DNA of 64,000 nucleotides from Magnetococcales bacterium. GTDB taxonomy: Bacteria; Pseudomonadota; Magnetococcia; Magnetococcales; UBA8363. Position numbers and translations under genes: made by a program. Below are positions 5,860-63,704 of this stretch, piece by piece (within the stretch, counting starts at the first letter, position 1; each line of letters starts with the position of its first letter). The DNA is taken from contig PEAK01000009.1 in assembly GCA_002753515.1 (NCBI GenBank), positions 1-64,000 on the forward strand, given 5' to 3'. The notes under the pieces were generated by a model. The model saw nothing but the letters and a program-made list of their open reading frames with translations. It did not search any database and had not been told where the DNA came from.

Positions 5860-8800
5860 TGATCATGGTACCCCTCCAGTTGCACCCCGACTTGCAACGC
5901 CCACTTCTCCAATGTTTCCAGACATCCTTCGTAATCGTAGTCACCCAATTGCTGTCTCAGGATATTCAGTTGTTCGCGGTCGCTGGCTCTTTTGGCGAAT
6001 TTTCCCATTTCCTCAATCACCATCTCCGCCTCCGCATTGTAATTGCGCAATAATGTTGCAGCCTGCTGGAACAGGGGAATCAGCATGACCATATTACTGG
6101 GGGCGTCACGTGCTGGAGGTCGGCTTTCCACCGGCTTCGGCAAGACCGATTCAAGGGTCAGGAGAACCGCCGTCAACTCCCGGGAAGCACTCTCCAGCAG
6201 AAAACCGATCTGTTCCACCCCCACTTTTTTCCGGGCAGCATCTTCGATCAATTGCGCTGCCCGACTCAAGGTGGTTGCACCAATGGTGGCCGAGACACCC
6301 TTGAGGGTGTGAGCGGTACGTTCCAAATCAGACCACGCCCTGGCCTCCAGGAGGTTGGCCATGGTGCGGCAGGAATCCGCCTGTAACCGGGCAAAGCGGG
6401 AAAGAATATTCAGATACAGTTCCACATCATTGCCCATGTGGCTCAAGGCGGAACGGGTGTCAAGACCTGGCAACTCGGGAAGTCCTTCCGGCACCTGGGA
6501 GTCGGCAATCACGGCGATACCCGCATCCGCTAAAGGTTCGTCGACCACGGTAATCCATTTGGCCAACGTAGCGTAAAGCAACTTGGGATCGATTGGCTTG
6601 GAAACATAATCGTTCATACCCGCCGCCAGACAAATTTCCCGATCCCCCATCATGGCATTGGCAGTCATGGCGATAATGGGCAATTTCTCAAAGCCTTTCT
6701 CCTGCCGGATGCGACGGGTGGCCTCATAGCCGTCCATCACCGGCATCTGAACATCCATGAGGACGGCATCAAACGGACGTTCAAAAACCCTCTCGACAGC
6801 TTCCACACCGTTGGTAACTATTTCCACCTGAAGTCCGACCTGGCTCAAGATTCCCGAAGCCACCTCCTGATTGATTTCGTTATCTTCCACCAGCAGCACC
6901 TTTTTGCCGACCATTTGTCGCGGGTGGTACTCCCCGATACGGGGAACGGCTTGCCCCCCCAAGGCATGCGCAATCATCTCCACCAGGGTTGAAGCGGTTA
7001 CCGGCTTCATCAGGAAATGGGAAACGCCCTCCCGAACCGAGGTGGACATCAACTCCTCTCGGCCATAGGCGGTAACCAGAACCATGTTCGGAGCGCAATC
7101 CCCCAGTTCAACGCGAATGGTATGGATTGCCTCCAGTCCGTCCATGCCCGGCATACGCCAATCCATCAGCACCAGATCGAACGGCGTGCCGTCTTGAGCA
7201 GCCCGGACGGCCATTTCCACGGCTTGTTGACCATTTTCCGCCTCTTCAACCAAACATTGAAAAGGGACCAACATGTCACGGCAAACGCGGCGCGCCATGG
7301 AATGATCATCCACCACAAGAATATGCAACCCGGCGAGCTGGGAAGGGGAGACCAGGGGCGCGGAAAGATTTTCCTCCCTGGCCAAAGGCAAGGCGAGCTG
7401 GAAGCTGAAAACACTTCCCCGGCTCGGTTCGCTGGTCATGTGCATTTGGCCACCCATCTGTTCCACCAGGTGACGACTGATGGCCAACCCGAGCCCGGTG
7501 CCGCCAAATTTGCGGGTCGTCGAAGCATCCGCCTGTGTAAAGGAGCTGAAGAGCCGCTCCATCTGCTCAGGGGTCATGCCAATGCCCGTGTCCCGGACCC
7601 GGAAAAGTACCCGGGCATCATTTTCGTTGCTATCGACAAGCTGAATCTCAAAGCAAACTTCGCCGTGTTCGGTAAATTTGATGGCATTACCCACCAGATT
7701 GAGCAAAACCTGCCCAAGGCGTAACGGATCACCCATCAGCAACTTGGGAATCCGATGATCCACAGCCACGATCAACTCCAGGGATTTATCCTGCGCCTTC
7801 GGTGCCACCATGGCCGTCACCTGATCCGCCACTTTGTCCACCGAAAAAGGGATGGTTTCCAACGTCAGTTTGCCCGCCTCGATCTTGGAAAAATCCAAAA
7901 TATCGTTGATGATGTGCAACAATGATCGACTGGCCTCATCGATGCGGGAAAGATAATGCATCTGTTGGGAAGCAAGGGGGGATTGCATGATCAGGTGGGT
8001 CATCCCCATGATGGCATTGATGGGGGTGCGAATTTCATGGCTCATATTGGCCAGGAATAGCGATTTGGTCCGGCTGGCACCCTCGGCCAATTTTTTCGCT
8101 GCGGACAAAACGCTCGTCTCGCGATGCAGCACCAAGTAATAGGCGAGCATCAACAGGCTGACCAACAGGGTGATGAAAATGCCCAGCATCCGATTAACCA
8201 GAGTGGCTACTTCAGGCTGAAGCATCAGCATCGACCAACCATCCCGATTGATCAAGAGACGCCCGACCAGGTATTGTTTATGGTTCAGGGTCAGTTTATC
8301 GCCATTGTGCAACTCCCCCTTGAAGAGGGGTGGAATATCGGCCAACGATCCGAACTGTTTGGTCTTTTCCAATTGTTGCATGGTATCCCGGGACAACGGC
8401 CACAACGGTTGCGGGGGGATCCCCTTTTGGCTGGACAACAACGCCACACCCTCCGCGTTGAGCAAAAAGACTTCGCCAAACTGTTTGAATCCCAACTCGT
8501 CCGGGCTCAAAGTTTTCTTGACCACCGCCACGCCAATAACTTTTTTGTGGTCATCGGAAAAGATGGAAGCGCCAGAAAAATAACCGGGTTCCTTGCTTGT
8601 AACGCCGTAGGCGAAATAGCTGCCTTTCTTTCCCTCCATGGCTTGCTGAAAGTAGGGGCGAAATTTAAAATTTTGTCCGATAAAGCTGGTCGGGGTGTTG
8701 CGATTGGACGATGCCAGCGTCACCCCTTCGCTGTCCATGAGGTAAGCGATGCCATTGTCTACTGTGGAGGCGATCTGATCCACGGCATGATTGGCCGTAC

Positions 8801-9794
8801 TGATCATTTCCGGCGGCAAAACACCTTCCCGAAAATAATCATCAGTAATCCCGGCCAAGGCGACCACCCCACCATCCACAGCGTAAATCTCTCGGTTCAA
8901 GCGATTGACCAGGGAGTCCAGGTTGACGCGCAGGAGTCCTGATCGTTCCTGTTGGTAGAGTTTTCCCAACAGTTCGGTCAGGGTCCAACCACCCCCGATC
9001 AGCAGGGTGAACCCCAGCATGAAAGCAATAAAATAGTATCTGTTTTTTTGGAAGAGCGGGGAATCGTCGGAGCGCCCGGTTTCCATTCTCCAGATGGCCA
9101 GAGTCAGGATTCCCGCCATCGAAGCCCGGGCCAGTTGAATGGGAAAGCCTATCCCATGCAGAAATGTCTCATAGTTCAGGATAACGGTAGTCCAGATGGC
9201 GGTTTGGGGAACCACCAACCCGCTGACAACGCCATATCCCGCCATGGCCAAGGAGCCGATTCGCAACCATCCCCTCTGTTGTTTGGAATTTCTCGCCCCC
9301 TCACGCCACAGCAGCCAAGCGCCTGCCACACAGGCGGGAAAAGCCAATCCGTAGCGGACCATGCTGGGAAAAACCTCCACCCCCTGACTCCAGGAGAACA
9401 CCCCCACGGCAGCCAACGGCACCAGGGAAATGCCAGGACGATACGTTCGACCCAGATAATGAGCGCCCCCCCGCAGGGTGAACTCCGCCAAAAAGAGATA
9501 AGACAAGGTCAGCAGAGTCGTCACGCCGAAGCGATACCCCGGAAAATCTCCCACCGCCATGCCGATCAATTCCAACCATTCCACCACACCGTGTACCAGC
9601 GCGAATCGCCCCAGAAGTCGCCAGGAGAGGGGGGATGTTTCTTCTCTGGGCATCGACAGGCAGACCACGCCCAAAATCAGGAAGCTGAGCCCGTAGATAA
9701 AATAAATATAATCCATCTGCTCTACAAAAAAACCGTCTCGCAAAAACGCCAGCGCGTGGAAGCCATCGGTAAGATTGGATGACAAATGAGACAT
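5856..9794 (-). CDS. Membrane hybrid histidine kinase with Cache sensor, two receivers and HPt
   Basis: A 1312-residue BarA-like hybrid kinase. The first ~280 residues contain about eight hydrophobic helices, an unusual multi-pass sensor module. A periplasmic Cache-type domain follows (~290-530, with [14 protein letters not shown] and [15 protein letters not shown]), then one more membrane helix (~545-565). The transmitter has H586 in [12 protein letters not shown], an N-box in LVGNAIKFT and G-boxes. Two receiver domains follow, with phospho-Asp near 880 ([11 protein letters not shown]) and 1013 ([11 protein letters not shown]). A C-terminal HPt domain has its His near 1161 ([13 protein letters not shown]). 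It therefore holds a complete His-Asp-His relay. The downstream REC-HK gene overlaps by ATGA. A palindrome overlaps a candidate promoter upstream (9913-9942). Confidence 0.95.
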
Positions 9795-30071: not shown

Positions 30072-33000
30072 TTATGGTACCAGGGTGACGCCACCATTGC
30101 TGCTGCCGGTGATATTGAATTGAATAGTGGAAATCTTCCCCGGGAGATAATGGTCCAAACGTATCCCGGTTGCCGCATTGGGAACATTGGAGGAATTACC
30201 GGTGACCGCTGACCAGATACCCTGGGCGACCATCCCACTGTAGGTGGAATCACCCGAGCTTCCCAATACCCCGGTCACGACATATTTGGGTACACCTCCC
30301 CCCTGGAAAAAGGTCAGATTGCCATCTGTCTTCAGGCTCGCCAAAATTCCATCATAGGAAGAGATCAACGTATCCAGATTGATGGAAGAAATTGAGATCC
30401 CGGAAAATGAAACATCTACCTTGGAGTTGGTTCCGTCAAAGGTGATCATGTTACCCGCGATAGATGGTATCACCGTTACCAGGATATCGACGGTTGAATT
30501 ACCAACGTAAGGGGCGGCATTGACCAATACACCTGCCAAAAGGGAATTCTTCACCGAACTGGGAAGCCGCGCCAACACGGTACCCAAAGCCTGAACACGC
30601 ATTCCTACAAGAATCTTGGGGGTGTTTGTGACCGAAACATCCATTGTGTCGATAATATCCCCGACACTGGAGATACCCGCTGTGCTTCCAGTGAGTTGAT
30701 GGTTCAATTTGGATAATATCATGGTTCTGATATTATCATTGATAAAGGTAATACTCTGGGGCGTGGCACCCGCCAAACTGGTCACGGCATTCCTGAAAAA
30801 GGTATTGGCATTGGCGGATAAAGCCGCCACTGCCGCTGCATTACCCACCGTGGTGTTCTTCGCCACCACAGTCACCTGGGAAATATACGATGCTGTGGTT
30901 TTAGGATCGGACTGGGGAGTGCTTTGAACAACCCCACCGCTTAAATAACTGGTACCGGCATCCGTTACCGTATAAGTGATGGAGCGCACAGAAGCCGTGG
31001 GACTGGCGTTGCTGGCATTCTTATATTGCACCGCCCTCAAAGCCGCTTGATAAGCCGCAATAGTACCATTACCCGTGATTGTCAAAGTTCCACCCGCATA
31101 GGAACTGGTTGCGCCGGTAATATAGGTGCTGGCCGCAGCAGGAAGACTCAGGACATCATCTGCAGCGGTATAATTACCACTGATGACGACAGAAGCACCG
31201 GAGATGGTATCGCTCTCACTATCCGTGAAAACAACTCCACTATCGATCGTAGTCGCCACATTTTTATTTGGATCCAGACTCACATTATAAGTAGATGTGG
31301 CTGGCGTGGAAGTAAACACCGGTACATCATTGATGGGATAAACAGTCACCGTACTCTGCATACTCGCCAGCGCCGTAGTCGAACTGCCGGATCCACCGGA
31401 ATCGGTAACCACATATTGGACCAGGCGAGAACCGTAAGTTGGGTTGTCACTGGTATTTTGATAGGTTACCGTTCGCAATACCGTTTGATAGGTTGCCTTG
31501 GTATCGGTCCCAGTAAGAGTCAACGTCCCCGTTCCGGCACTCCAGGTGGCCGTCACATTGCCCGAGACGGTCGCCGCCAAGGCGTCCTGTCCATTGATAT
31601 AGGTAGCCGGGGTAATGGTAACCGTTGCGCCTGAAAGGGTACCATTGTCTGGATCCGTGACGGTCGCAGTGGAACTGATCACCTTTTTGTGCTTCAGATT
31701 GGTAGTGCCTATAGGTTCCTGATCCTCAACATAACTGACGCTGGAAGCGGCGTTGGCCACCGTGGGGGGATCATTGACCACAGTCACCGTCATCGAACTG
31801 GTTACCGCAGTACTGGTCGGATTGCCGCCATTCGTTGAACCCCCAACATCCGTAACCTGCCACGTCAAGGTCCGAGTCCCAGCACCCGGATCACGGCTGT
31901 TGTTGATATAGGTCACTGACCGCAGCGCCGTTTGATAATTGGCAAGGGTCGTCGTTCCAGTCAAAGTCAAAATATGAGTGGTAGTATCCCAGGTGGCAGA
32001 GATGCCGTTTTGTGTCGTCATTTGCAATGTATCAGCCGGGCCATCTCCGGAGGTCGTCGGAATCCCAGTCAGAGTGATAGTAGCCCCTTGAATATCATTA
32101 GACTCCGAATCGGTAATGGTGAGCTGGTTGCTGGGATCAATGGAGATCGCCGGCGTGATCACTCCCGGTGTGGCATCTTCGGCATAGGTCACCGCTGCGG
32201 TGGGGGCCGTCACCACCGGGGGATCGTTCACCGGAACCACCGTTACCGTTGCAGTCACCATGCTGCTGGTCGCAACCAAGGGAACGCCCGAATCCGTAAG
32301 GGTGAAACCAACCTTGCGAATCCCGCCGGTCGGGTTGTAGTTGATCAGACCCGTCACCGCATCATAATTGGCATAGGTCACCGTTGCCAACGCCGCTTTG
32401 TACTTGGCCAATGTTGCCGTGCCGGTCATCGTCAAAATGCCGGTTGTCTTGTCATAGGTTCCCGTGATGCCATCGGCATTGGCATAACCCCCGGACACAT
32501 TCGTCTGACCCGCAAACGCGAGACGATCCTCGGGATAAACCGTGACGCCATTGTTATCGGTAATCTTAACCGTTGCACCGGTTATGGTATCCCCTTCCGC
32601 ATCGGTCGCAGCAATAGCACTGTCTATGATGGTCGCTGCCGCTTTTTCGATATAGGTAATGGCACCTGTTGTCGTCAAGGCCGGGGGATCATTGACCGCC
32701 ACCACGGTCAGACTGCTGGTCACGGAAATACTGGTGGGATTGCCGCCATTCGCAACACCGCCGTTATCCGTCATCGTCCAGGTCAAGGTCCGGGTTCCGG
32801 CTCCCGGATCGCGACTGTTATTGATATAGGTCACCGATCTGAGCGCCGTTTGATAGTTGGCTATGGAGGCCGTTCCCGTCAACGTCAACGTGTGCGTAAC
32901 CGCACTCCAGGTTCCGGTAATGCCATTTTGACTGGTAAACTGCAGTGTGTCAGCCGGACCCACCCCATTGGTGGTCGGAATTCCCGACAGGACAATCGTT

Positions 33001-36000
33001 GCGCCCAATATCTGGTTCGATTCCGAATCCGTCACGGTGAACTGGCTATTGGGATCAATGCTCATAGCCGGCGTGATCACTCCCGGCGTGGCATCTTCGG
33101 TATAGGTCACCGTTGCGGTGGGTGCCGTCAAAACCGGGGGATCGTTGACCGGAACCACCGTCACCGTATCGGACACAGCCGTGCTGGTCATGGGTGCGGG
33201 CGGCGTACCCGTATCGGTAACCGTAAATTTAACCTTACGGAAACCACCTGTGACATTGTAGTTGATCAATCCAGTGGTGGCGTCATAGTTGGCATAGGTC
33301 ACCGTGGCCAATGCCGCCTGATATTGGGCTACGGTTGCCGTCCCGGTCAAAGTCAACACCCCGGTCGTCTTGCTGTAGGTCCCGGTAATACCATCCGCAT
33401 TGGAATAGGCCAGGGCAACATCGGTTTGTCCAGCAAAGGCAAGGCGGTCTTCCGGGTAGATCGTCGTCCCATCGCTGCCGGTAATCGATACCGTCGCCGA
33501 AGCAATGGAATCCCCCTCGGCATCGCTTATCGTGATGGCTGCGTCAATGACAACCGGTGCAGCCTTTTCCAGATAAGTTACGGCTCCCGTGGACACAATC
33601 ACCGGGGCATCGTTGACGGGTGTCACCTTGACCGTACTGGTCACAGCGACAGAACTGTCGGTTCCATCCGTGATCGTCGTCGCAAGAATACGATCCGTAG
33701 CCGTGGGGTTGGACCCATTATGATAAAATGTCACCGATTTAAGGGCAGCGAGATAGGCCGTTGTACTCGCTACCCCCGCCAGCGTCAATTTGCCTGCGGT
33801 TGCATCCCAGGTTCCGGTAATCTTGGTCGTATTGGTAAAGCCCAGGACATCGTAATCTTTCACATCTTTTTGATAGCCGCTGGTAATCGTCACCGTTGCC
33901 CCGGCCATGGTCACATTGTCGGGATCGGAGATGGTCAACGTCGTATCAAAAGGGGTCGCTGCATCTTTTTCAGTGTAATTTAACGTGCCACCCGCAGTCA
34001 TGAGGGGGGGATTGTTGATTGGAACAACGGTTACGGTATAGATCACCGCTGTACTGGAATCGGTTCCATCCGACACGGTGACCGTAATCTCTCGATCACC
34101 CGCCGCCGGATCATGACTGGAGGATGTATAAGTTACGGCACGCAGAGCCAGTTGATAATCTGCAACCGTAGTCATTCCCGTCAACGTCAATACACCCGTT
34201 GTCGCGTTCCAGTTTGTTTTAATTTTGGTGGTTCCGACAAAACTCAATAGATCTTTGCCTGGATCAAATCCGCTGGATAGGGCAATGGTAGCACTGGTCA
34301 GATTGGCATTATCGACATCGACAACCTGGACGGTTTTATCCAGCAAAATCGGTGTATTGGTACCCAACCCCTCGGTCTCAGTGAAAGTTGACGCCGCAGT
34401 CCCCTGGGTCACCACCGGGGGATGGTTCACGTGCGTCAGGGTAATGGTCAGGGACTTGGTGTCGGTCAAGGGGGTGTTCACAGCCCCGGAATTGCCCAGA
34501 TCATCCACTTTCACCGTTAACGTGTCGGTACCGTAAAACAAGTAGTCCCCCAGATACGTCAAACCCGCCAACGCCGTATTCAGATCGGCCAGGGTACCTG
34601 AAAAAATCATCGCGGAAGAATTATTGCTGCCGGAATTAAAGGTGAGCCCCTTGGTAGTGCCCAAGGTCAATTTCCCATGATTCACCGTCAAGGTCACCTT
34701 TTCCGTACCCGTTCCAACATCAACATCAGCAATACTTAAACCCAGAATTTTCAACGCGGTTTCCTGCAAGCCGCTTTGATCCTCCGGCATGGTGAGTACT
34801 GGGGCATCATTGACAGCCGTCACAGTGATCACCGCCGTCGCTTTGTCCGGCCCCACCTTGTTGGCAGCGGCACCCGTCGCAGCAAACACATCAAAACCAA
34901 AGACAGTGCCATCCGCAGAATTCTGGTTCAGCTTCGGAGTAAACCGCAACCCGGTCGCCCCTTCATCGACGGTAATGAAATCTCCCTCCGCGATCATCGT
35001 TTTACCATCGGTTTTGAAGAGAGTACCGTTGGTAATATTGGCAATTTTAAAATGGGTCACTTCGGCACCATCGACACTGTTGCGCCCTATCACCAATCCC
35101 GATGTGGTCTGAACATCCTCATTGGTGGTCGCAGGGGTCACAGTGGGTCGGTCGGCCACTGGATTGACCGTCACTTTAAAGCTTTTGGAAGTCGAACCAA
35201 CCGTTTTACTGCCATCGGAAACCGTCAGCGTTATGGTGGCGGATCCAAACTGACTTGCAACGGGTGCAATCGTTACTGTCCTGTTGGCATCTGTACCGGA
35301 AATCACCACATTGACAACAGGAATCAGAGTGGGATTGGATGAATCGGCCGTGACCGTCAGCGTATTGGCCGCAGTATCCAGATCCGCAACCTGAAAGGAG
35401 AGCGGACCCACTGTCGCATTTTCATTGACTGTGACATCAGCGATGGCGGTCAGGGTTGGCGCATGATTAATCGCAGTCAGCGTCATGGCGACGGTCGTTG
35501 CGGCGGGAACCGTTGTTCCGCTACCCACATTGCCCATATCGTTCAATTCGATCGCAAGCGAATCGGCCCCATAATACAGGGTGTCCCCGAGATAGTTCAG
35601 ATTGGTCAATGCTTTGGTCAAGTTGGCAAGGGTATCCAACAACACCAGCGATTTACTGGACTGACTGTGATCCGAAAAAACGGACAAGGTTCCATGTTGT
35701 ACCGTCAACGTCAGTTGGATTTTTTCCGGGCTGATCAGGGTCAAATCGGGATCGCCGATCTGAATGCCGGTGATAGTGGCCTGGGTCTCTTCCAAAACGT
35801 TGAGAGTGGAGGGGGCGGTAATAAACGGTGGCCTGTTCATTTTCTTGAGGGAAATGGTCACCTTGGCAGGTACGATGGCCACCGCCGGGGATGCATCGGG
35901 CCCGTCCTGGGCACTCACCGTCAATGTATACACCGGGAGGTTTAGATAATTCAGATTGGCGTTGGCGGCAACGGTAATCTGCCCCGTCGTTGCATCAATG

Positions 36001-39000
36001 GCAAACGCGTTGCCGGTATTACCACCCGTGATCGCGTAGGTTGGCGGATCCTTTTCAATGTCGGTCGTACTCACCGAGCCCACGACAGTCCCAACCTTCG
36101 CCGTCTCATCAACGGAGAAGTTATAGGTGGTGCTGACAAAAACAGGTGGGTAGTTGACAAATTTTACCGTAATAACGGTCGAACCACTGACAGTCAAAGG
36201 ATTTCCAGAACCTATGTTACCCATATCGTTGATTTCAACGCTTAAGGTATCACTACCGCTATAATGCAGTTCCGGGGCATAGCTCAATTGAGACATAACC
36301 TTGTTCAAGGCGCTCATTTTACCTTGGAGCGTCACGCTTTTCGACCCGGATCCCCCCGCAATGACCGTAGCACCGGTCAAATCACTCAACGTCAGCACCC
36401 CATGCAAAACCGCCAGTCTGGCCGTCATGTCCCCACCCGGGGTTTTGGACGTGATATCTGGATCCGCGATAACAATGCCCGTGATCTCCGCCTTGCCATC
36501 TTCCAACACACTCACCGGTGCGGGCATAACCACAGTGGGTGGCTCATTAACATTGTTGATCTGTATGGTAACCACCGCGTTGCCATCGGCAAGCGTCAAT
36601 GGCGGCGTATTATTATCGGTTACCGACACCTCCAGGGTATAGGTTGACAAGGTTTCAAAATCGAGTTTGGCATCCTTGTTCACGGTGATCTGCCCCGTGG
36701 CGGCATCGATGGCAAACGTATTACCCACATTACCCTTGGCAATGGCATAGGTCAGTTTGGGGGCATGCGGGGCAGAAGCCTGTACGGCCCCAACGACTGT
36801 CACAGCGGGACTGTTTTCATCGACCGAGAAGGTCAGGTTGGTATTGGTCAGTACCGGGGGGAAATTGACCGGTTTGATAGCGATTGTAGCACTTCCAGAT
36901 GCCGTTAACGACCCCCCGCTCCCCTGAAATCCCAGATCATCGACCGACACGCTCAGGGTATCGGTGCCCCGATAATATTGATTGGGATTGTAAACGATTT
37001 TCCCCAGAACGTTGTTCAAGGAAACAACCGTCCCATTGATGGTCAAACTCTTGCTACCCGAAGCCCCAGCCGTTACCGTCACCCCCGCACTGTCGGTCAG
37101 ATTCAGCACACCATTGTTGACTTCCAGCTTGACCGATTCCACCCCTTTGTCCCCACCCGTCAGCAAGCTGTCGGGATCGGCAACCACAACACCCGCAAGC
37201 GGCAATTGGCCATTCTCATTGACGCTGAAGGAACCAGGGACCGTAACGGTCGGCGGTTTGTTGATCTTGCTTAAATTGATGGTAATTGTAGCCGTAACAT
37301 AGGTGATCTTTTGCGTAAAGGTATCGGCCACATTGTCGGTGACCGTCGCTGTCAAGGTGTACGATGAGGCCTTGCCATAGTCCAACGCGGCAACCGTTGT
37401 AATGGTTCCAGTCGCCGAATCCACGGTGAATACATCACTGGGGGTCAGAGTATACGCCAGAACTTTGGAAGTGTCCGTCGTCGTTGCCACCAATTTCCCG
37501 ACTATGGTTTGCGGTGGAACATCATCATTGACAGCAAATGTCTGCGCCGTCATGACTGGAGGGACATAAAAGGTGGCTGTCTTAAGAACCGGCCTGTTAT
37601 TTGAATTCGTATTGGAAGAAGAGGCCGGCGTGCTTGCTGTGGGAGCCGGAGTCGCCGCAGCCGATTGAGACGCATTATTAAAAACTGAATTGGGATCGGA
37701 AGCAGCGGTTGGCGTTGTCTTCGCCCCGGTATCAACCGGTTTGGCGGAAGTATCCGATTTGGCAGAAGTATCCGGTTTGGCGGAAGTATCCGATTTGACG
37801 GAAGTATCCGATTTGGTGGAAGTATCCCCGGCAACCGCTGTATCACCTTTTCCGGTACCGCCAGTGGTTGCAGCCGTATCCTTGGAACCTCCCGCTGCAT
37901 CGCTACCACCCGTCTTGGCACCGGTCTCAGTACCTACCGGCTTGGTTGTGTCACCCGGGGTTGGCGGCTTGCCACCACTCTCCGTCAAGGGTGCGGAGCC
38001 AGCCTTGACGGCATTTCCCAACTGCTTAGCCACGTCATAATCCTGAATACCAATGGCTTTGGCCTGGTCTTTGATCTCCTGCTTCACTTCCCTGGCTGTT
38101 TTTTCGAGGATCTCAGACAAACCTTTGCCTTCTTTCACCTCCTTTGACACTTCTTTGGAAAAATCTTCCACTTTGCTGGCGGTTTTTTCGAGGGCAGCCG
38201 CCGCAGCCGTGTCATCCACCTTGGCATTGGCAACAGCTTCCGGACTGACAGATTTACTCTCCAACGCCGCTTTCTTGTCGGTCAACTCGGCAAGCTTCTC
38301 CTTGTCTCCAGACGTTTCCGCCGCTTTCATCTCTTCCTTGATCTGGTCCAGCTGTTTCTCCGTCTCGATGGCCTTGACGATATCCTCCTTGGTTTTCTCC
38401 TGCAATTTTTCTTCAGCCGCCGCCACTAATTTGTCCAAGGCTTCCGGTGACCTATCCAAAATCTTTTTGACCTCTTCAACACTGGAAGCCGCCCCTTTGG
38501 CCACCAAAGACTTGGCGAGATTGTCCGCCAAGGCTTGTTTCGCCGCCGCCGGAAGCCTTTGCACAGCAGTGCTGGCATAAGCATTTGCCAGCTTGGCCGG
38601 CGGAGCCGAAAAAACAACAGGCGGTGTTTTCTTGGAACCGCTTAACATCTGGTCTCTTTTGACCACCTCGGGTGCCTTGCTCAGATCAGCAGCCTCAGCA
38701 TTGGCAATCAGGGCAGTCAAAAAAAGAATCTCGCCAGAGGAAGAACTGACCTTTTTGTCAATTTCCTCCATCCACACCAGCACCTCGTCCCTGAGAGAAA
38801 TGACCTCGATCCCCTGATCGTCACCCAAACCGTTCAGTTGAATAAACCCTTCCGTACCACGAACCCCCATGGTCGCGACCGGGGTCACCATGTGAAATGG
38901 TTTGCTCTTGAGCTGGCCCAGGCGTCCCGAAGTGAATTTGGCCGATCCCTTGTTCAACTTCACCTCGCCCTTGTTGCCATCCTCTTCATTGACCGTATTA

Positions 39001-39437
39001 TCCGGTCGCACCTTGAAGGCGTATTTCTGCACCAGGAATTCGCTGTCCTCACCCAGTGCAATGACGGCATCATCTTTCATTTTGAGGATCAACCGCGCCT
39101 TGGAGCCGGTCACGATGCGATCACCTTCAAATACGGGTGAACCTTCGTCCAGAACCCGTTTTTCCTTGTCTATTTCGGCGAAAGCCAAGCCTTTCAACTG
39201 GGTAACCGAAGCCACCGCCTCCCGTTGCGGCGCTGTTTCCGTTGCTTTGGTGGTTTTGGACTCTTTTTCTTCACCAGGGGATGGCTTGGCCCGTTGCGAA
39301 AGCTTGTCGCGATCCAGGGCAATACCCTTGTGTTCCACAGACTTTTGCGATCCAAGCAAAAGGAACACGGCAACAGCGGCAATGCCGATGATGATCAGAA
39401 AAGCTACAAACCATTTATTTTGGAACAAGTTTCGCAT
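30072..39437 (-). CDS. Giant membrane-anchored FecR/cadherin-like repeat protein
   Basis: 3121 residues. The N-terminus has an uncleaved-looking membrane helix (FVAFLIIIGIAAVAVFLLLG, ~9-28). A FecR domain follows (~70-230; SPVFEGDRIVTGSKARL, KSKPFHMVTPVATMGVRGTE). Residues ~330-480 are charged coiled coil. Residues ~490-625 are low-complexity with TSAKSDTSAKPD repeats. The remaining ~2300 residues are cadherin/VCBS-like beta domains linked by VNDPP or NRPP motifs (for example VTVVPVNDPPVLTAP, FAIDAATGQITV). Two ~306-residue blocks are near copies. The last ~270 residues are unique and carry no RTX (GGxGxD) or LPXTG signal. Such proteins are surface adhesins or envelope-spanning structural proteins; FecR plus an inner-membrane anchor is unusual for a secreted adhesin. 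A secretin-SPOR gene lies upstream on the same strand. Confidence 0.88.
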   Translation of the reverse strand: MRNLFQNKWFVAFLIIIGIAAVAVFLLLGSQKSVEHKGIALDRDKLSQRAKPSPGEEKESKTTKATETAPQREAVASVTQLKGLAFAEIDKEKRVLDEGSPVFEGDRIVTGSKARLILKMKDDAVIALGEDSEFLVQKYAFKVRPDNTVNEEDGNKGEVKLNKGSAKFTSGRLGQLKSKPFHMVTPVATMGVRGTEGFIQLNGLGDDQGIEVISLRDEVLVWMEEIDKKVSSSSGEILFLTALIANAEAADLSKAPEVVKRDQMLSGSKKTPPVVFSAPPAKLANAYASTAVQRLPAAAKQALADNLAKSLVAKGAASSVEEVKKILDRSPEALDKLVAAAEEKLQEKTKEDIVKAIETEKQLDQIKEEMKAAETSGDKEKLAELTDKKAALESKSVSPEAVANAKVDDTAAAAALEKTASKVEDFSKEVSKEVKEGKGLSEILEKTAREVKQEIKDQAKAIGIQDYDVAKQLGNAVKAGSAPLTESGGKPPTPGDTTKPVGTETGAKTGGSDAAGGSKDTAATTGGTGKGDTAVAGDTSTKSDTSVKSDTSAKPDTSAKSDTSAKPVDTGAKTTPTAASDPNSVFNNASQSAAATPAPTASTPASSSNTNSNNRPVLKTATFYVPPVMTAQTFAVNDDVPPQTIVGKLVATTTDTSKVLAYTLTPSDVFTVDSATGTITTVAALDYGKASSYTLTATVTDNVADTFTQKITYVTATITINLSKINKPPTVTVPGSFSVNENGQLPLAGVVVADPDSLLTGGDKGVESVKLEVNNGVLNLTDSAGVTVTAGASGSKSLTINGTVVSLNNVLGKIVYNPNQYYRGTDTLSVSVDDLGFQGSGGSLTASGSATIAIKPVNFPPVLTNTNLTFSVDENSPAVTVVGAVQASAPHAPKLTYAIAKGNVGNTFAIDAATGQITVNKDAKLDFETLSTYTLEVSVTDNNTPPLTLADGNAVVTIQINNVNEPPTVVMPAPVSVLEDGKAEITGIVIADPDITSKTPGGDMTARLAVLHGVLTLSDLTGATVIAGGSGSKSVTLQGKMSALNKVMSQLSYAPELHYSGSDTLSVEINDMGNIGSGNPLTVSGSTVITVKFVNYPPVFVSTTYNFSVDETAKVGTVVGSVSTTDIEKDPPTYAITGGNTGNAFAIDATTGQITVAANANLNYLNLPVYTLTVSAQDGPDASPAVAIVPAKVTISLKKMNRPPFITAPSTLNVLEETQATITGIQIGDPDLTLISPEKIQLTLTVQHGTLSVFSDHSQSSKSLVLLDTLANLTKALTNLNYLGDTLYYGADSLAIELNDMGNVGSGTTVPAATTVAMTLTAINHAPTLTAIADVTVNENATVGPLSFQVADLDTAANTLTVTADSSNPTLIPVVNVVISGTDANRTVTIAPVASQFGSATITLTVSDGSKTVGSTSKSFKVTVNPVADRPTVTPATTNEDVQTTSGLVIGRNSVDGAEVTHFKIANITNGTLFKTDGKTMIAEGDFITVDEGATGLRFTPKLNQNSADGTVFGFDVFAATGAAANKVGPDKATAVITVTAVNDAPVLTMPEDQSGLQETALKILGLSIADVDVGTGTEKVTLTVNHGKLTLGTTKGLTFNSGSNNSSAMIFSGTLADLNTALAGLTYLGDYLFYGTDTLTVKVDDLGNSGAVNTPLTDTKSLTITLTHVNHPPVVTQGTAASTFTETEGLGTNTPILLDKTVQVVDVDNANLTSATIALSSGFDPGKDLLSFVGTTKIKTNWNATTGVLTLTGMTTVADYQLALRAVTYTSSSHDPAAGDREITVTVSDGTDSSTAVIYTVTVVPINNPPLMTAGGTLNYTEKDAATPFDTTLTISDPDNVTMAGATVTITSGYQKDVKDYDVLGFTNTTKITGTWDATAGKLTLAGVASTTAYLAALKSVTFYHNGSNPTATDRILATTITDGTDSSVAVTSTVKVTPVNDAPVIVSTGAVTYLEKAAPVVIDAAITISDAEGDSIASATVSITGSDGTTIYPEDRLAFAGQTDVALAYSNADGITGTYSKTTGVLTLTGTATVAQYQAALATVTYANYDATTGLINYNVTGGFRKVKFTVTDTGTPPAPMTSTAVSDTVTVVPVNDPPVLTAPTATVTYTEDATPGVITPAMSIDPNSQFTVTDSESNQILGATIVLSGIPTTNGVGPADTLQFTSQNGITGTWSAVTHTLTLTGTASIANYQTALRSVTYINNSRDPGAGTRTLTWTMTDNGGVANGGNPTSISVTSSLTVVAVNDPPALTTTGAITYIEKAAATIIDSAIAATDAEGDTITGATVKITDNNGVTVYPEDRLAFAGQTNVSGGYANADGITGTYDKTTGILTMTGTATLAKYKAALATVTYANYDAVTGLINYNPTGGIRKVGFTLTDSGVPLVATSSMVTATVTVVPVNDPPVVTAPTAAVTYAEDATPGVITPAISIDPSNQLTITDSESNDIQGATITLTGIPTTSGDGPADTLQMTTQNGISATWDTTTHILTLTGTTTLANYQTALRSVTYINNSRDPGAGTRTLTWQVTDVGGSTNGGNPTSTAVTSSMTVTVVNDPPTVANAASSVSYVEDQEPIGTTNLKHKKVISSTATVTDPDNGTLSGATVTITPATYINGQDALAATVSGNVTATWSAGTGTLTLTGTDTKATYQTVLRTVTYQNTSDNPTYGSRLVQYVVTDSGGSGSSTTALASMQSTVTVYPINDVPVFTSTPATSTYNVSLDPNKNVATTIDSGVVFTDSESDTISGASVVISGNYTAADDVLSLPAAASTYITGATSSYAGGTLTITGNGTIAAYQAALRAVQYKNASNASPTASVRSITYTVTDAGTSYLSGGVVQSTPQSDPKTTASYISQVTVVAKNTTVGNAAAVAALSANANTFFRNAVTSLAGATPQSITFINDNIRTMILSKLNHQLTGSTAGISSVGDIIDTMDVSVTNTPKILVGMRVQALGTVLARLPSSVKNSLLAGVLVNAAPYVGNSTVDILVTVIPSIAGNMITFDGTNSKVDVSFSGISISSINLDTLISSYDGILASLKTDGNLTFFQGGGVPKYVVTGVLGSSGDSTYSGMVAQGIWSAVTGNSSNVPNAATGIRLDHYLPGKISTIQFNITGSSNGGVTLVP
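31769..33610 (-). repeat. Two tandem ~920-bp repeats inside the giant protein gene
   Basis: Two adjacent units of about 919-921 bases (boundaries near 31769, 32688 and 33609) encode near-copies of a ~306-residue block. Each carries YPEDRLAFAGQT, NADGITGTY, VTYANYDA and then DPGAGTRTLTW. The reading frame is kept. Such repeats expand and contract by recombination, so the true copy number may vary between strains or be miscounted in assembly. Confidence 0.8.
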
Positions 39438-39740: not shown

Positions 39741-42425
39741 CTATTGCGATGCCAGACGCGCCTGGATCCCGGTCAGACTGGCAATGCGATCCCGCGCCTG
39801 ATTCGCCTCCTTCTGACTGCCGTAAGGGCCAGAACGAACCCGCTGATAGGGCGTACCCGCCACAATCGCCTGTTCCCGCGTAATCGGCAAACCCATGGCG
39901 CTGATCTGGGACTGCACGTTATCCGCCAACGCCTTTTGCCGATAGGAACCCAGTTCCAAAAACACATCACCCCGGCCGACCGCAGCATGATTGTTGCCCC
40001 TGCCCGGACCCGGCGAGCGGGTGAAACCCGGAGGCAGTTGCGACAGTTGATTCAAGGCCGGCTGCCGATCATAGGCTTGACGATCCGCATTATCCATGGG
40101 CATGGAGGGATCCTCCTGCTCTTCCGGCGGTAATGCGGGCCGTGCCGGAGTTGGGGCAATCGTATTGGCCGCACTCTGCCCAACATCCGCTGGCAGCCCA
40201 CCGGTAGGTGCCGGATTGCCACCATTGGTCCCGAGACTCCCCACGCCCCCGGGCATGGTGAAATCAAGGTAAGACCCACCCGGTGCCATGGCCGACGGCG
40301 ATGGAATTTCCTGATTTTTCACAGCAGGTTCCGTAGGGACCAACTCGTTACCTTTCCGACCACCCTTTTCCGGGGTCTCTTTCTTCTCCGGAACCGGATT
40401 ATCCTTCGCAGGTTGCCCCATGTCCTTGCCGGGTTGACCGGGTTGCGACCCATCCTTGCCGGCCCCGGGTTGTTGGTTCGCCTTTCTCACCGGTTGTGCC
40501 GTCGCATGAACCATTTTCTGCGCATTCTTCGCCTGTTGCGGCTTCATCTCCCTGGGCTTGCCCTGGGTCATGACCACTGGCCGCAAGAAAATCACCAGTT
40601 CCGTCTTTTTCGCCTGATGCTCCTGATTACTGAACAAGAATCCCACTCCAGGCAAACGACCCAGCACCGGCAAACCATTGGTCAGTTCCTTGGTTTCATC
40701 CTGCATCAGACCACCCATGACAGCAACCTGCCCGGAATGCACCCGCATCATGGTCTCCATCTCCTTGACTTCAATCTCGGGGATCTGGCTGATAACAGGC
40801 GCTTCCAAACCGGTGGTGGTCGTATTTCTCTGCAAAGCGGGGTTGGGATCGTTCTTCCATGCGTAAATACGTGAAATCGTTGGCCGGACATTCAGGTTAA
40901 CAATATCCTGGTCCGATATCTGCGGCGTCACCGACATGATCAAACCCACTGGAACCGTATTGACCCGGGTATTGAATACCGGAACCTGGGCCGTAGCCGC
41001 CGCTGCGGTACCCGTCGTCGTCGTGGTCCCATTATTGGTGGTGGCTGTGGCCGTGGATTCCAAAGTGAAAAACACCTCGTTCCTCACCACTTTGAGCAAT
41101 GCCGCCTGGTTGTTGAGGGCCATGATCTTGGGCGATGAAAGAACTTTGGTATTACCAAACGATTCCAAAGCCTTCAAGGCAACACCGATCGGCCCGTTGG
41201 ACCCCTGACCCGTGTTATGATTGATGGTGAAGAAATCCATCGGGGAATCAACAGGATTCATTTTGGAGAAAGCCCCGGTGAACGTTACCCCCGACGTGTG
41301 GCTGAATACCTGGTTCCAATCGACACCTTCGCGAAAGTCATCGTTCAGCTCAACTTCAACAACGGTCGATTCAATCAACACCTGGCGGTGTACATTATCG
41401 AGGACGGTGTCCAAATATTTTTGGATGCGATCATGCTGGGCCGACGAAGCGAATACCGAAATGATACCCGCCTCAGGATTGATGGAAACCGTACCGGGCG
41501 GTTCACTTCCCGAGCTGACATTGGTATCCAAACCACCGCCCGTGGGTGGCACGATGCCCCCCAGAATATCGCCCGCTCCCGCTGCCGGAATCACCCCGGG
41601 AATTGGCCCAGAGCTGGACCCACTCTTGCCCATTTTATCGCCCAAGCCCACAGATGTTCCCCCCCCGGAGGTTGCCGAGGTACCGCTATCAACCATCGAA
41701 ACCCGGGCTTCGCTACCGAGAATGGATTGAATATTCTGCGTCAACGTACGCCAAAACCGGCTGCTCGATGACGTTGTCAGGTGGGTCATCGATTGATTGG
41801 CATCATTACTCGACGTATCACTGCTCGTCAAATTGGTCGTACCCTTATTGGCACTATTGGTCTCACCCGTCGAGACCTGACTGGAAACCTTGTTGCCGCT
41901 CTTGGCATCACGTTCCACGTTGATGTAGTCCACCTGGTAAATCTTCAGATAAGCCTTATCCGGTGAAACAATGACGGTCTCGCCATCAATTTCGTAGCGG
42001 ATTCCAACCTGCTTGGACACCCGATCCAAAATTTGCGGCAGGGTCTGGTCGATGGCACTCAGTGTCACCCGACCGGAAATCCCGGGATAAACGTCAATAT
42101 TTTTGTTGGCATCCCGGGCCAGGGCAAACAATAAATCTCGCACTGGCATTTCCGTGACCGTAATGGTGTAAACCTCTTCACGTGTCCCGGGATCAACCCC
42201 ATCCTTCTGGGCAATCACATCCGGCGGTAAATCCGCACCCGCCGTAATATGGGCAGGGGGATCGGTGGGACGCAAAAAATGGGATTTTGATGCTTTGATG
42301 TCGGTAGTTTGACAAGATGCGATCAAAACACCTCCCAACACCGCCCCCAGGAAAAGGGCACTTCGACGGCCAAATTTCCGGGTTTTGGGTTGCATCGGGC
42401 GTCCCCGGGGGCGAATAGGCTTCAT
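39741..42425 (-). CDS. Secretin lipoprotein (MshL/PilQ-like) with C-terminal SPOR domain
   Basis: 894 residues. A signal peptide ends in a lipobox (LIASC, C38), marking an outer-membrane lipoprotein. An N-terminal secretin short domain (~95-160: YTITVTEMPVRDLLFALARDA) is followed by Ser/Thr/Gly-rich inserts. The secretin core runs ~350-610, with VLIESTVVEVELNDDFREG, LSSPKIMALNNQAALL, VPVGLIMSVTPQISD and VMGGLMQDETKELTNGLPVLG. A Pro/Gly/Lys-rich linker leads to a SPOR domain in the last ~80 residues (VFLELGSYRQKALADNVQ, YQRVRSGPYGSQKEA). Secretins form outer-membrane exit channels for type IV/MSHA pili or type II secretion. SPOR domains bind denuded peptidoglycan glycans at division sites, so this fusion may place the pore at the septum. 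The start ATG at 42425 follows GGGGA. Confidence 0.9.
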   Translation of the reverse strand: MKPIRPRGRPMQPKTRKFGRRSALFLGAVLGGVLIASCQTTDIKASKSHFLRPTDPPAHITAGADLPPDVIAQKDGVDPGTREEVYTITVTEMPVRDLLFALARDANKNIDVYPGISGRVTLSAIDQTLPQILDRVSKQVGIRYEIDGETVIVSPDKAYLKIYQVDYINVERDAKSGNKVSSQVSTGETNSANKGTTNLTSSDTSSNDANQSMTHLTTSSSSRFWRTLTQNIQSILGSEARVSMVDSGTSATSGGGTSVGLGDKMGKSGSSSGPIPGVIPAAGAGDILGGIVPPTGGGLDTNVSSGSEPPGTVSINPEAGIISVFASSAQHDRIQKYLDTVLDNVHRQVLIESTVVEVELNDDFREGVDWNQVFSHTSGVTFTGAFSKMNPVDSPMDFFTINHNTGQGSNGPIGVALKALESFGNTKVLSSPKIMALNNQAALLKVVRNEVFFTLESTATATTNNGTTTTTGTAAAATAQVPVFNTRVNTVPVGLIMSVTPQISDQDIVNLNVRPTISRIYAWKNDPNPALQRNTTTTGLEAPVISQIPEIEVKEMETMMRVHSGQVAVMGGLMQDETKELTNGLPVLGRLPGVGFLFSNQEHQAKKTELVIFLRPVVMTQGKPREMKPQQAKNAQKMVHATAQPVRKANQQPGAGKDGSQPGQPGKDMGQPAKDNPVPEKKETPEKGGRKGNELVPTEPAVKNQEIPSPSAMAPGGSYLDFTMPGGVGSLGTNGGNPAPTGGLPADVGQSAANTIAPTPARPALPPEEQEDPSMPMDNADRQAYDRQPALNQLSQLPPGFTRSPGPGRGNNHAAVGRGDVFLELGSYRQKALADNVQSQISAMGLPITREQAIVAGTPYQRVRSGPYGSQKEANQARDRIASLTGIQARLASQ

Positions 42426-42574
42426 ATTTTTTTCCCCAATCGTCGTAAAGAAACACACCCCATGGAACATCCCAAGGATGTGATCGGCCACTGTCAGTCA
42501 AGCGGATGAGCAAGTTTCAGGCCAGCGACAAGACGTAATTGAAGGAACCAAAAGGATACCGCTGTTTTTCGCAG

Positions 42575-61043: not shown

Positions 61044-62084
61044 TCAACGTCTTTGAAAAAACCAGTGCCTCTCCAGAGCAAAGCGGAACGCCCGCGCCAG
61101 CATGCGACGACTCAGATTGTGTTTGATGAGAAAATCCTGGGCGCCTTCATGAATACCTCTTGATTGCATCTCTTCATTTTCCCTGTCGGCCATCATCAGA
61201 ATGGGCGTATCCGCCGCCTTGGACTTGACCGCACGAAATGTGTTCAAACCATCGCTGTCCGGCAAGGATAGATCCAACAAGATCCAATCAAAAGAGACCC
61301 TTGGCAAAATTTCAAGGGCCTGCTGCAAATTTTCAACAAGGGACACCGTTATTTTCTTCGGAAGCATTTTGTCCTCTTTGCCATCCGCATCACCGTCAAA
61401 CCACTCTTTGACCAGCATGGCAAACAGGGGATCATCCTCCACTACCAATAGTCTGTATTCCCGATCAAGGTCCAACTCCACATCATCCACTTCCAGATAC
61501 CCGGTAATCATCGTCCGAATCAATGCCATGGGCGGATCGCTGACAAACGCCATATAAAAATGCAGGATGAAGAAACAAATCATGGCGTAGGCCATCGACA
61601 CATGGATACCCGCAACAACCGATAGCCATTCCGAAGGAATACCCATTTTCGGCCATTCCTTGTAATACACGAACAAGAGACCGCTAATCCACAATACAGG
61701 CGATATCAAGGCGTTCAGAACAAGGTAGGCCACCCGTTGCAAAGGATTGTGTTTCAACCGACGCGTTTTTTTGAAAGGGTGACTCAGGTTGGGATTAAAA
61801 ATTCCCCTTGAATAATAATGAATAACCTCAATCATCTTTTCCATGGTTGGAATGTATTGCCGCCACTCCCCGGTGATCAAGTGCCAAAAAATGGTAAAGA
61901 TCCACAACCAGATGAGACTGAATGCCAAGGTTCGATGCCAGCGCGCCGCCCGCTCATAATCCAACCAATCCAACAACCCGGTCACATGAAAGCCGGTAAT
62001 GATCAAACAAGTGATCAACAAAGCCTGGGACCAATGCCAAAATCGTTCGTATCGGGTGAAAAAAATCTCGCGATGTTTGATCAT
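61044..62084 (-). CDS. Cytochrome b membrane subunit fused to a response-regulator receiver domain
   Basis: 346 residues. Residues 1-~200 are a four-helix cytochrome b561/Ni-Fe-hydrogenase-type subunit with the four haem-ligand His in helices 1, 2 and 4 (H17, H68, H161, H175; e.g. GIHVSMAYAMICFFILHFYM). Residues ~210-346 are a CheY-like receiver: acidic pair D217/D218 (VVEDDP), phosphoacceptor D271 (LLDLSLPDSDG), Lys K321 (FLIKHN). The usual Thr/Ser switch residue is replaced by Ala. Six bases separate it from the octaheme cytochrome gene upstream, so it is the quinone-linked partner of that enzyme. A receiver on an electron-transfer subunit is very unusual and suggests phosphorylation-dependent control of, or signalling from, quinone redox. 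Confidence 0.92.
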   Translation of the reverse strand: MIKHREIFFTRYERFWHWSQALLITCLIITGFHVTGLLDWLDYERAARWHRTLAFSLIWLWIFTIFWHLITGEWRQYIPTMEKMIEVIHYYSRGIFNPNLSHPFKKTRRLKHNPLQRVAYLVLNALISPVLWISGLLFVYYKEWPKMGIPSEWLSVVAGIHVSMAYAMICFFILHFYMAFVSDPPMALIRTMITGYLEVDDVELDLDREYRLLVVEDDPLFAMLVKEWFDGDADGKEDKMLPKKITVSLVENLQQALEILPRVSFDWILLDLSLPDSDGLNTFRAVKSKAADTPILMMADRENEEMQSRGIHEGAQDFLIKHNLSRRMLARAFRFALERHWFFQRR

Positions 62085-62090
62085 GGCACC

Positions 62091-63704
62091 TCACTTTCTG
62101 CGCCGCCGGCGCAGAATGACACGCATGGTAGCGTGCATCAAAGTCCCGGACACGGTCAAAACAACAAACCCCCTGCCAATGACATGCAACAGCGGATTGT
62201 TTTTCCGTCCAGGCATATAAATCCCCTCCACCCCATCCATACGGCCACCGTTACGATGACAATCCTTACATGTCAAAGAGAGTTCCTTGGGGGCCACCAT
62301 GTGGGTCAGGGGAAAATTCATAACAGCTTTGACAAAACCAACCTCACCACTGAACGGAACACCCGCCGCTGCCATGCCGACGCGCACGGAACGTTGCCAA
62401 TCACCTGAAACTTCAAATGCTTCCCGATCATCTACGTCACTCTTGAGCAAATGATTGGCCACCAAATGCCGGTTGACGGAATCGTACGGCATCACAGCCC
62501 ACATGCGTTTAAAAGGCCAAATTCTGGAATCGGGATCCCGCGCCTCACCATGGATGTGATTGAGTTGCACACTGTCCCCGTCCGGCAATTTATCCCCCGG
62601 CCCCACATAATCCACCCGACCGTTGAACCAGGCATAACGCGGAGTCAGGTTTTCCGCCCAGATCGAGGTCCCGTGGGTACTCGTGTGTTTGAAGTTCAAT
62701 TTTTCAGCGATATGCCCTTCCTGCCGCAATATATCGGGGACATCGGTATTGCCGGTTTTTTTCCCCGCCGTACGCCAATCCCAATGAACCATGGTCTCCA
62801 CACCACCGCGAGCCATAACGGGAATGTGACAGGTCTGGCAAGCAACCCGATTCACATGATCATCCAGTTTGAAATTACCGGGGTGGGGTGTATTACCATG
62901 ACACGAGGCACAGGAGGCACGCGTATGATCCGTCTTTCCGGGGCGGTCGATACCCAAGGAATCTTGTGCTTTCATGCGATACCGCGACCCGGTGATACGA
63001 TGCCCGTTGGAGGTATGACAAATAATACAGCCGAAATCGAGACCACTGGCATTCATGTGCACGTCCAGGAAACGATCTGGATGTGTCAATGAGGAATCCA
63101 AATCGCCATGTTTGGCGCCATCCCCCGACCCCCCCCGAAAATGACAAAACCCACAATTGGCACGGCTCGGACGGCCCACGCTCTGGGCCAAGGCCGCATA
63201 GTCGGGTTTTTTTAATATCTTATCCTTGTACCGCAGTTCCGAGTAACCATAATTATATTTTTTATAGCCTCCTGTCTGCTCATGGCAGACCAGGCAATCC
63301 ACCTTATCGTCTGCATCCTGACGATCTTCGGGATCCTGCCAGCCAAAACCAGGATGACAGGTCGTACATTCGCGAAAATTACTCACCGTGGAACCACAAA
63401 AAGCATTCAGGACATGTTTTTTTCCGAAAACCTTGCCACTGGTGGTATCGGTGAACTCCCAGGTCCAATGAATATCCTTGCGCACCATGGCCGCCGCTTC
63501 GGTATGACAACTCAAACACGCCCGTGTAACCTCGCGACCCGACTGAAAAGGCCCCGCCAAAGCGGAAAGCATACGATGCTTGGTAGTGGAAATCGGGATA
63601 TCAACCCTGCCCTCGCCAGAAGCCCCACCCACGAATCCGACAATACACCCGGGGAGCAAACACAAAAAAAAACCTACTAAACGCCAATTTATTGCTCGGA
63701 CCAT
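62091..63704 (-). CDS. Octaheme c-type cytochrome, tetrathionate-reductase (OTR) family
   Basis: 537 residues. Eight CxxCH haem sites, in order CLSCH, CTTCH, CLVCH, CGFCH, CIICH, CASCH, CQTCH, CKDCH. Signal peptide (VGFFLCLLPGCIVGFVGG) and a C-terminal membrane helix (VIGRGFVVLTVSGTLMHATM) anchor it in the inner membrane facing the periplasm. The haem-rich body (FRGGSGDGAKHGDL, GHRITGSRYRMKAQD) resembles the octaheme tetrathionate reductase family, which can reduce tetrathionate, nitrite or hydroxylamine in vitro. With sulfur-globule-like proteins nearby, a sulfur oxyanion is the most likely partner. GGGAGAAACTGTC precedes the ATG. Cotranscribed with the cytochrome b-receiver gene. Confidence 0.9.
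   Translation of the reverse strand: MVRAINWRLVGFFLCLLPGCIVGFVGGASGEGRVDIPISTTKHRMLSALAGPFQSGREVTRACLSCHTEAAAMVRKDIHWTWEFTDTTSGKVFGKKHVLNAFCGSTVSNFRECTTCHPGFGWQDPEDRQDADDKVDCLVCHEQTGGYKKYNYGYSELRYKDKILKKPDYAALAQSVGRPSRANCGFCHFRGGSGDGAKHGDLDSSLTHPDRFLDVHMNASGLDFGCIICHTSNGHRITGSRYRMKAQDSLGIDRPGKTDHTRASCASCHGNTPHPGNFKLDDHVNRVACQTCHIPVMARGGVETMVHWDWRTAGKKTGNTDVPDILRQEGHIAEKLNFKHTSTHGTSIWAENLTPRYAWFNGRVDYVGPGDKLPDGDSVQLNHIHGEARDPDSRIWPFKRMWAVMPYDSVNRHLVANHLLKSDVDDREAFEVSGDWQRSVRVGMAAAGVPFSGEVGFVKAVMNFPLTHMVAPKELSLTCKDCHRNGGRMDGVEGIYMPGRKNNPLLHVIGRGFVVLTVSGTLMHATMRVILRRRRRK

Follow-up and report, generated by a model that had tools for sequence, protein, structure and literature searches.

At one end of the window (the 64,000-nucleotide stretch of DNA that was analyzed as a whole), two adjacent minus-strand genes encode an octaheme cytochrome c and a membrane cytochrome b with a C-terminal response-regulator receiver (REC) domain. 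The stop codon of the cytochrome c gene and the start codon of the cytochrome b-REC gene are 6 bp apart. The features of the pair, and those of the related single-gene versions discussed below, are as follows:

61044..62084, minus strand: cytochrome b561-receiver fusion protein, 346 aa (a single uninterrupted ORF; 18 fused copies)
61500..62060, minus strand: diheme cytochrome b561 domain, residues 9-195, four transmembrane (TM) helices (PF01292; invariant His 17, 50, 161, and 175; predicted helices)
61095..61448, minus strand: REC domain, residues 213-330, C-terminal, predicted to be cytoplasmic (PF00072 and fold match)
61272..61274, minus strand: codon of D271, the predicted phospho-acceptor (Asp in 17 of 18 fused copies, Asn in the copy G044a)
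61188..61190, minus strand: codon of A299, at the Thr/Ser switch position; Ala in the window, Thr in L001 (alignment and codon comparison)
62091..63704, minus strand: OTR-family octaheme cytochrome c, 537 aa, with an N-terminal signal and a predicted C-terminal TM anchor (TIGR04315, match to 1SP3, eight CxxCH motifs; the TM helix is seen in a fused homolog)
63111..63122, minus strand: OTR active-site residues D195 and K198, equivalent to D150 and K153 of 1SP3 (alignment to 1SP3)
L135:1839-4538, L136:2985-5837, and L137:6673-9108: triple-fusion genes L104, L105, and L106 (three Magnetococcales genomes, three families)

The 346-aa ORF matches PF01292 over residues 9-195 (E = 5.6e-21; 75.6 bits against a cut-off of 30.1) and PF00072 over residues 213-330 (E = 1.7e-17; 64 bits against a cut-off of 30.2), so that both domains lie in one continuous frame, as the original prediction from the bare sequence had stated. 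A missed stop or sequencing error near residue 205, or a chimera, was considered and ruled out: the fusion is not an artifact because 18 fused copies are present in 14 genomes. Four histidines (H17, H50, H161, and H175) are invariant across the fused copies and fall in predicted helices spanning residues 11-35, 43-71, and 153-181, the usual pattern of diheme b561 proteins. With its four TM helices and four heme-ligand histidines, the window protein has the makeup of a diheme quinone subunit of PF01292. Three of the ligands proposed earlier (H17, H161, and H175) are thus retained, but H68 has to be replaced: this position is Leu or Phe in 6 of the 18 fused copies, and the true ligand on TM2 is H50. 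Judging from the topology, H17 and H175 would bind the heme on the cytoplasmic side, and H50 and H161 that on the periplasmic side. The diheme b561 subunits of the FdnI, HydC, and PhsC types likewise contain four TM helices with one His each on TM1 and TM2 and two on TM4; we know of no PF01292 member of these types with a C-terminal receiver. A PDB sequence search yielded no match to the cytochrome b half among the matches listed.

The partner had been described as an octaheme protein with an OTR-like body, and this description holds. The 537-aa sequence contains eight CxxCH motifs (at residues 63, 113, 137, 184, 226, 265, 289, and 479), belongs to the TIGR04315 family (513.9 bits against a cut-off of 375; profile positions 2-440 of 440), and matches PDB 1SP3, the octaheme tetrathionate reductase (OTR) of Shewanella oneidensis, with 308 bits over 445 matched residues. 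K198, D195, and C103 align with K153, D150, and C64 of 1SP3, which we take to be the unusual OTR active site with its Lys-ligated active-site heme. To our knowledge, catalytic reduction of tetrathionate, nitrite, or hydroxylamine is known only for the Shewanella protein within this family. The two proteins have the eight hemes and the body in common, whereas the window protein extends past the portion aligned to 1SP3 into a predicted C-terminal TM anchor that has a basic tail, and a cytochrome b subunit is encoded next to it.

The REC domain retains the receiver fold: a Foldseek search with a model of the domain matched the PmrA and KdpE receivers with TM-scores to the target of up to 0.88. 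By alignment, D217, D218, D271, and K321 are all found at the positions named in the original prediction, making up the acidic pair, phospho-Asp, and Lys of a phosphorylatable response regulator. The switch Thr/Ser that follows beta4 is missing from the window protein, which has Ala299 instead. Among the 18 fused copies, this position is Thr/Ser in 11 and Asn, His, or Ala in 7, with Asn or His in all six copies of a second paralog clade. The phospho-Asp and the Lys are each kept in 17 of 18 copies, and Asp or Glu occupies position 218 in all 18; therefore, the majority of copies are expected to be phosphorylatable, with the usual switch altered in several. The exceptions are G044a, in which D271 is changed to Asn and D217 is also lost, so that on sequence grounds it is a true pseudo-receiver, and G042b, in which Arg replaces K321. 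Codon 299 is GCC (Ala) in the window and ACC (Thr) in L001, from a Magnetococcales metagenome-assembled genome, which is 98% identical to the window; the two are near-isogenic natural variants on which the receiver could be tested.

Overall, the receiver evolves faster than the cytochrome b domain (mean pairwise identity of 46% versus 61%). Nevertheless, its best-conserved segment is the beta3/phospho-Asp region around D271 (0.73), and D218, D271, F318, and K321 rank 11, 17, 20, and 21, respectively, in conservation among 137 columns; the alpha5 segment also scores above the REC mean (0.56 vs 0.46). In three close pairs, the dN/dS ratios of REC were 0.115, 0.033, and 0.095 (from small counts), and the domain thus appears to be under purifying selection. 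REC is the last domain in every fused copy and is not followed by an output domain of its own.

The 18 complete fused copies come from five families of Magnetococcales, the order that includes the magnetotactic cocci (48 genomes of the order examined); a fifteenth genome, G002, encodes a copy truncated where its contig stops. In the window's genus, each of the eight genomes carries at least one fused copy, and several have two paralogs. The second copy in the window's own genome (G000:C23:3358-4395; 59% identity) also adjoins an OTR gene. Family f14 encodes unfused cytochrome b only, and both forms are present in G043 and G046. Among about 350 genomes sampled from the rest of the phylum, 20 encode the OTR-type cytochrome b and none the fusion; in a GTDB scan (best 80 of 292 loci), the 74 loci from outside Magnetococcales were likewise all unfused. 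The possibility that the fusion is common across bacteria is therefore not borne out by the phylum sample or by these best 80 loci, in which the unfused OTR/cytochrome b pair is widespread in Beta- and Gammaproteobacteria. Long tblastn matches (L034 and L070) had raised the possibility of a separate response-regulator gene 3' of the unfused pair in the latter groups; there is no REC there. A rough HMM search detected no receiver or kinase ORF within 1.75 kb in the 74 loci outside Magnetococcales (among the best 80 of 292).

In a tree of cytochrome b, all fused copies cluster in one clade (support 100/95) that lies next to two unfused f14 proteins; a single fusion event is sufficient to explain this. 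In the REC tree, grouping the fused copies as one clade gave an AU p of 0.38 with G024 included and support of 73/62 without it, values compatible with one acquisition of REC as well as with several. The closest receivers found belong to a Magnetococcales subfamily (L112-L121; 35-41% over nearly the full domain), in which REC lies behind a cNMP-binding domain (PF00027; proteins of ~320-340 aa) or at the start of ~290-aa proteins. The fused and L112-L121 receivers form one clade (98/96) against 17 other receivers, and the nearest relatives of the fused REC are, as far as the sequences tell, not the receivers of classical regulators. In place of a respiratory membrane subunit, these closest relatives have a PF00027 domain or an unassigned region as the partner of REC. 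REC-HD-GYP and REC-SpoIIE regulators resemble the window fusion in joining a receiver to an enzyme, but in the window fusion REC is C-terminal and sits on a membrane electron carrier rather than on a second-messenger enzyme or a phosphatase.

A single ORF encodes OTR, cytochrome b, and REC in three genomes (G001, 899 aa; G016, at least 811 aa; G019, ~950 aa). These triple fusions indicate that the three modules are components of the same complex. The original proposal, a respiratory complex with a receiver domain attached, was right, and because the three parts are one polypeptide in three relatives, it is stronger than first claimed. An AlphaFold model of a triple fusion places the OTR C-terminal helix first, then four TM helices, and then REC; the OTR part is poor (mean pLDDT of 60, no hemes), which makes the model usable only for the order of helices. 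This order would put OTR outside and REC inside the cell. The triple fusions back the cooperation of OTR and cytochrome b, until now assumed from gene order, with physical linkage, and provide a single polypeptide for testing the control of electron flow by a receiver.

The gene run continues past the end of the window (G000:C2:64209-70305, that is, L091:1210-7306). Upstream of OTR and on the same strand, this region encodes an ankyrin-repeat protein, a 190-aa protein, a TorD-like chaperone, NrfD, a 4Fe-4S protein, and a molybdoenzyme of 926 aa that is related to PhsA (323 bits, far below the cut-off of 694); a divergent gene in this region encodes a PAS-sigma54 regulator. Given the shared strand and the spacing, the module, OTR, and cytochrome b-REC probably form one operon. 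At the paralog locus (L092; G000:C23:3355-7095), a 331-aa ankyrin-repeat protein alone precedes the OTR and cytochrome b-REC pair, which belongs to the clade with the Asn/His switch. In G042, the ankyrin gene is replaced by a gene for an EAL-CZB protein, which adjoins the complex. Another variant is found in G045 (L126:5305-8945) and G041 (L127:2280-5887), where genes for a multiheme cytochrome c and a 685-aa protein replace the molybdoenzyme module directly upstream of OTR; in G045, the 685-aa protein comprises a multiheme c and a cytochrome b561-like part.

The earlier statement that no kinase is linked to the complex applies to the window locus and to 16 kb beyond it, where none was found, but not to the relatives. 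In G004, a gene for a DctP/Peripla_BP_6 binding protein starts 15 bp 3' of cytochrome b-REC and is followed by genes for a HisKA-HATPase-REC-REC-Hpt kinase and a REC-SpoIIE protein, with overlaps of 4 and 8 bp (L142:1099-7761). In G040, which has the unfused cytochrome b, a PAS-kinase-REC hybrid kinase and a REC-HD-GYP protein are encoded directly upstream of OTR, and G019 has a PAS-kinase-REC gene about 1 kb downstream of the triple fusion. The kinases at 4684-9794 of the window are distant, as had been noted, yet the one at 5856-9794 has its domains in the order of the OTR-linked G004 kinase, with 42% identity between the two over 781 aa. Contig C17 of the window's genome encodes a more similar homolog of the G004 kinase (52% over 797 aa), as part of a binding protein-kinase pair (L152:4560-10780) that is 50% and 52% identical to the G004 pair. 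By homology, the C17 kinase and the 5856-9794 kinase are candidate phosphate donors acting in trans. Within 4684-9794 (minus strand), the gene for the HisKA-HATPase-REC-REC-Hpt hybrid kinase (1312 aa) overlaps a REC-HisKA-HATPase gene.

The original prediction suggested that the complex is gated by, or reports to, a phosphorelay. Two-component systems control respiration through changes in transcription; a cytoplasmic receiver on a membrane electron-entry subunit suggests a pathway that acts on the respiratory complex itself, not only on its genes. Together, the diheme cytochrome b and OTR would constitute a membrane complex that transfers electrons from quinol to the periplasm. In homologous subunits, such as FdnI, quinone is bound on the cytoplasmic side, the one predicted for REC here. 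Electrons from quinol would enter near the cytoplasmic-side heme (H17/H175), pass to the periplasmic-side heme (H50/H161), and then to OTR, which may reduce a small inorganic acceptor, for example, tetrathionate, nitrite, or hydroxylamine. REC would hang by a short linker (about residues 182-210) from the quinone-site end of TM4, the helix predicted to contribute one ligand to each heme (H161 and H175). Phosphorylation of D271 by a histidine kinase/Hpt pathway could, from this position, raise or lower electron entry, and a branch of respiration would then be controlled rapidly at the post-translational level. We give about an even chance to the general form of this model, namely, that phosphorylated REC controls the flow of electrons from quinol to OTR in a membrane complex whose parts, conservation, and fusion are read from sequence and whose topology is predicted, and for which we infer the phosphorylation, its donor, the effect on flow, and the substrate. 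Slightly more tentative is the sharper version, in which a phosphorelay directly turns up or turns down a respiratory electron-transfer complex through phosphorylation of a receiver in the quinone-side membrane subunit, with receiver, quinol dehydrogenase, and multiheme reductase combined in one polypeptide in three lineages.

Control of electron flow by REC is supported by the retention of the fusion across copies and families as a single cytochrome b clade, by the triple fusions, by the purifying selection, retained fold, and conserved D218, D271, F318, and K321 of the receiver, and by the signaling genes beside the complex in G004, G040, and G019, with homologs of the G004 pair in the window's genome. 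Against it stand the window operon devoid of a kinase, the switch residue (Ala in the window, Asn/His in the second paralog clade), the core residues lost in G044a (D271 and D217) and G042b (K321), and the faster evolution of REC. The last trait and the existence of one degenerate copy would also be expected of a passenger receiver without a function, but such a fortuitous domain, like an assembly or sequencing artifact, is highly improbable: the dN/dS of REC is low, the fusion arose once according to the tree of cytochrome b and is kept across five families, and the many separate assemblies together with the three triple fusions refute an artifact.

The unusual switch residues can be read in two other ways. 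REC could be an interaction module that works independently of phosphorylation, in practice a pseudo-receiver, and mediates dimerization, cell placement, or docking through the alpha4-beta5-alpha5 face. The absence of Thr/Ser from the switch position of the window protein and of the second paralog clade, the missing phospho-Asp of G044a, the well-conserved alpha5, and the joining of the same REC subfamily to unrelated cNMP-binding partners in Magnetococcales are all compatible with this possibility; we nevertheless consider it rather improbable, given the near-complete retention of the phospho-Asp, the Lys, and the acidic residue at 218 and the fact that no other part of the domain is conserved as well as the Asp segment. 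Alternatively, the signal could run in the opposite direction, with cytochrome b sensing the redox state of the quinone pool or the electron flux and REC serving as a membrane-held phosphate sink or as the site where a shared Hpt kinase docks; in this way, respiration would tune a phosphorelay (controlling, e.g., motility, c-di-GMP, or aerotaxis). A switch lost while the Asp and Lys are kept fits phosphate carriage without a large conformational change; REC is terminal and has no output domain of its own; the G004 phosphorelay has other receivers with a SpoIIE phosphatase output, the G040 system has an HD-GYP output, and an EAL-CZB gene adjoins the complex in G042. However, the window locus lacks partners of the G004, G040, and G042 types, and the route from the redox state of cytochrome b to REC is an assumption, so that we regard this scenario as unlikely, if worth serious consideration.

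If REC controls electron flow as proposed, His-Asp phosphotransfer would act on this flow directly and post-translationally; the searchable literature contains no description of such a link. The OTR/cytochrome b pair itself is already known: in Thermosulfurimonas dismutans, a neighboring OTR and multi-TM cytochrome b (TDIS_1882/1883) were proposed to tie OTR to the membrane (PMC4911364). In pairs of this type, the cytochrome b ends after the ~200-aa domain in the loci examined, with no receiver, whereas the Magnetococcales cytochrome b is fused to REC and, in three genomes, to OTR as well. Our search of the open-access literature, with most subscription papers outside its reach, retrieved no report of a cytochrome b561-receiver fusion or of the triple fusion, and these two arrangements appear to be the new part.

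Elsewhere in the window, the minus strand at 30072-39437 encodes a giant protein of 3121 aa with FecR and cadherin-type repeats, after which comes a gene for a secretin with a SPOR domain (39741-42491).
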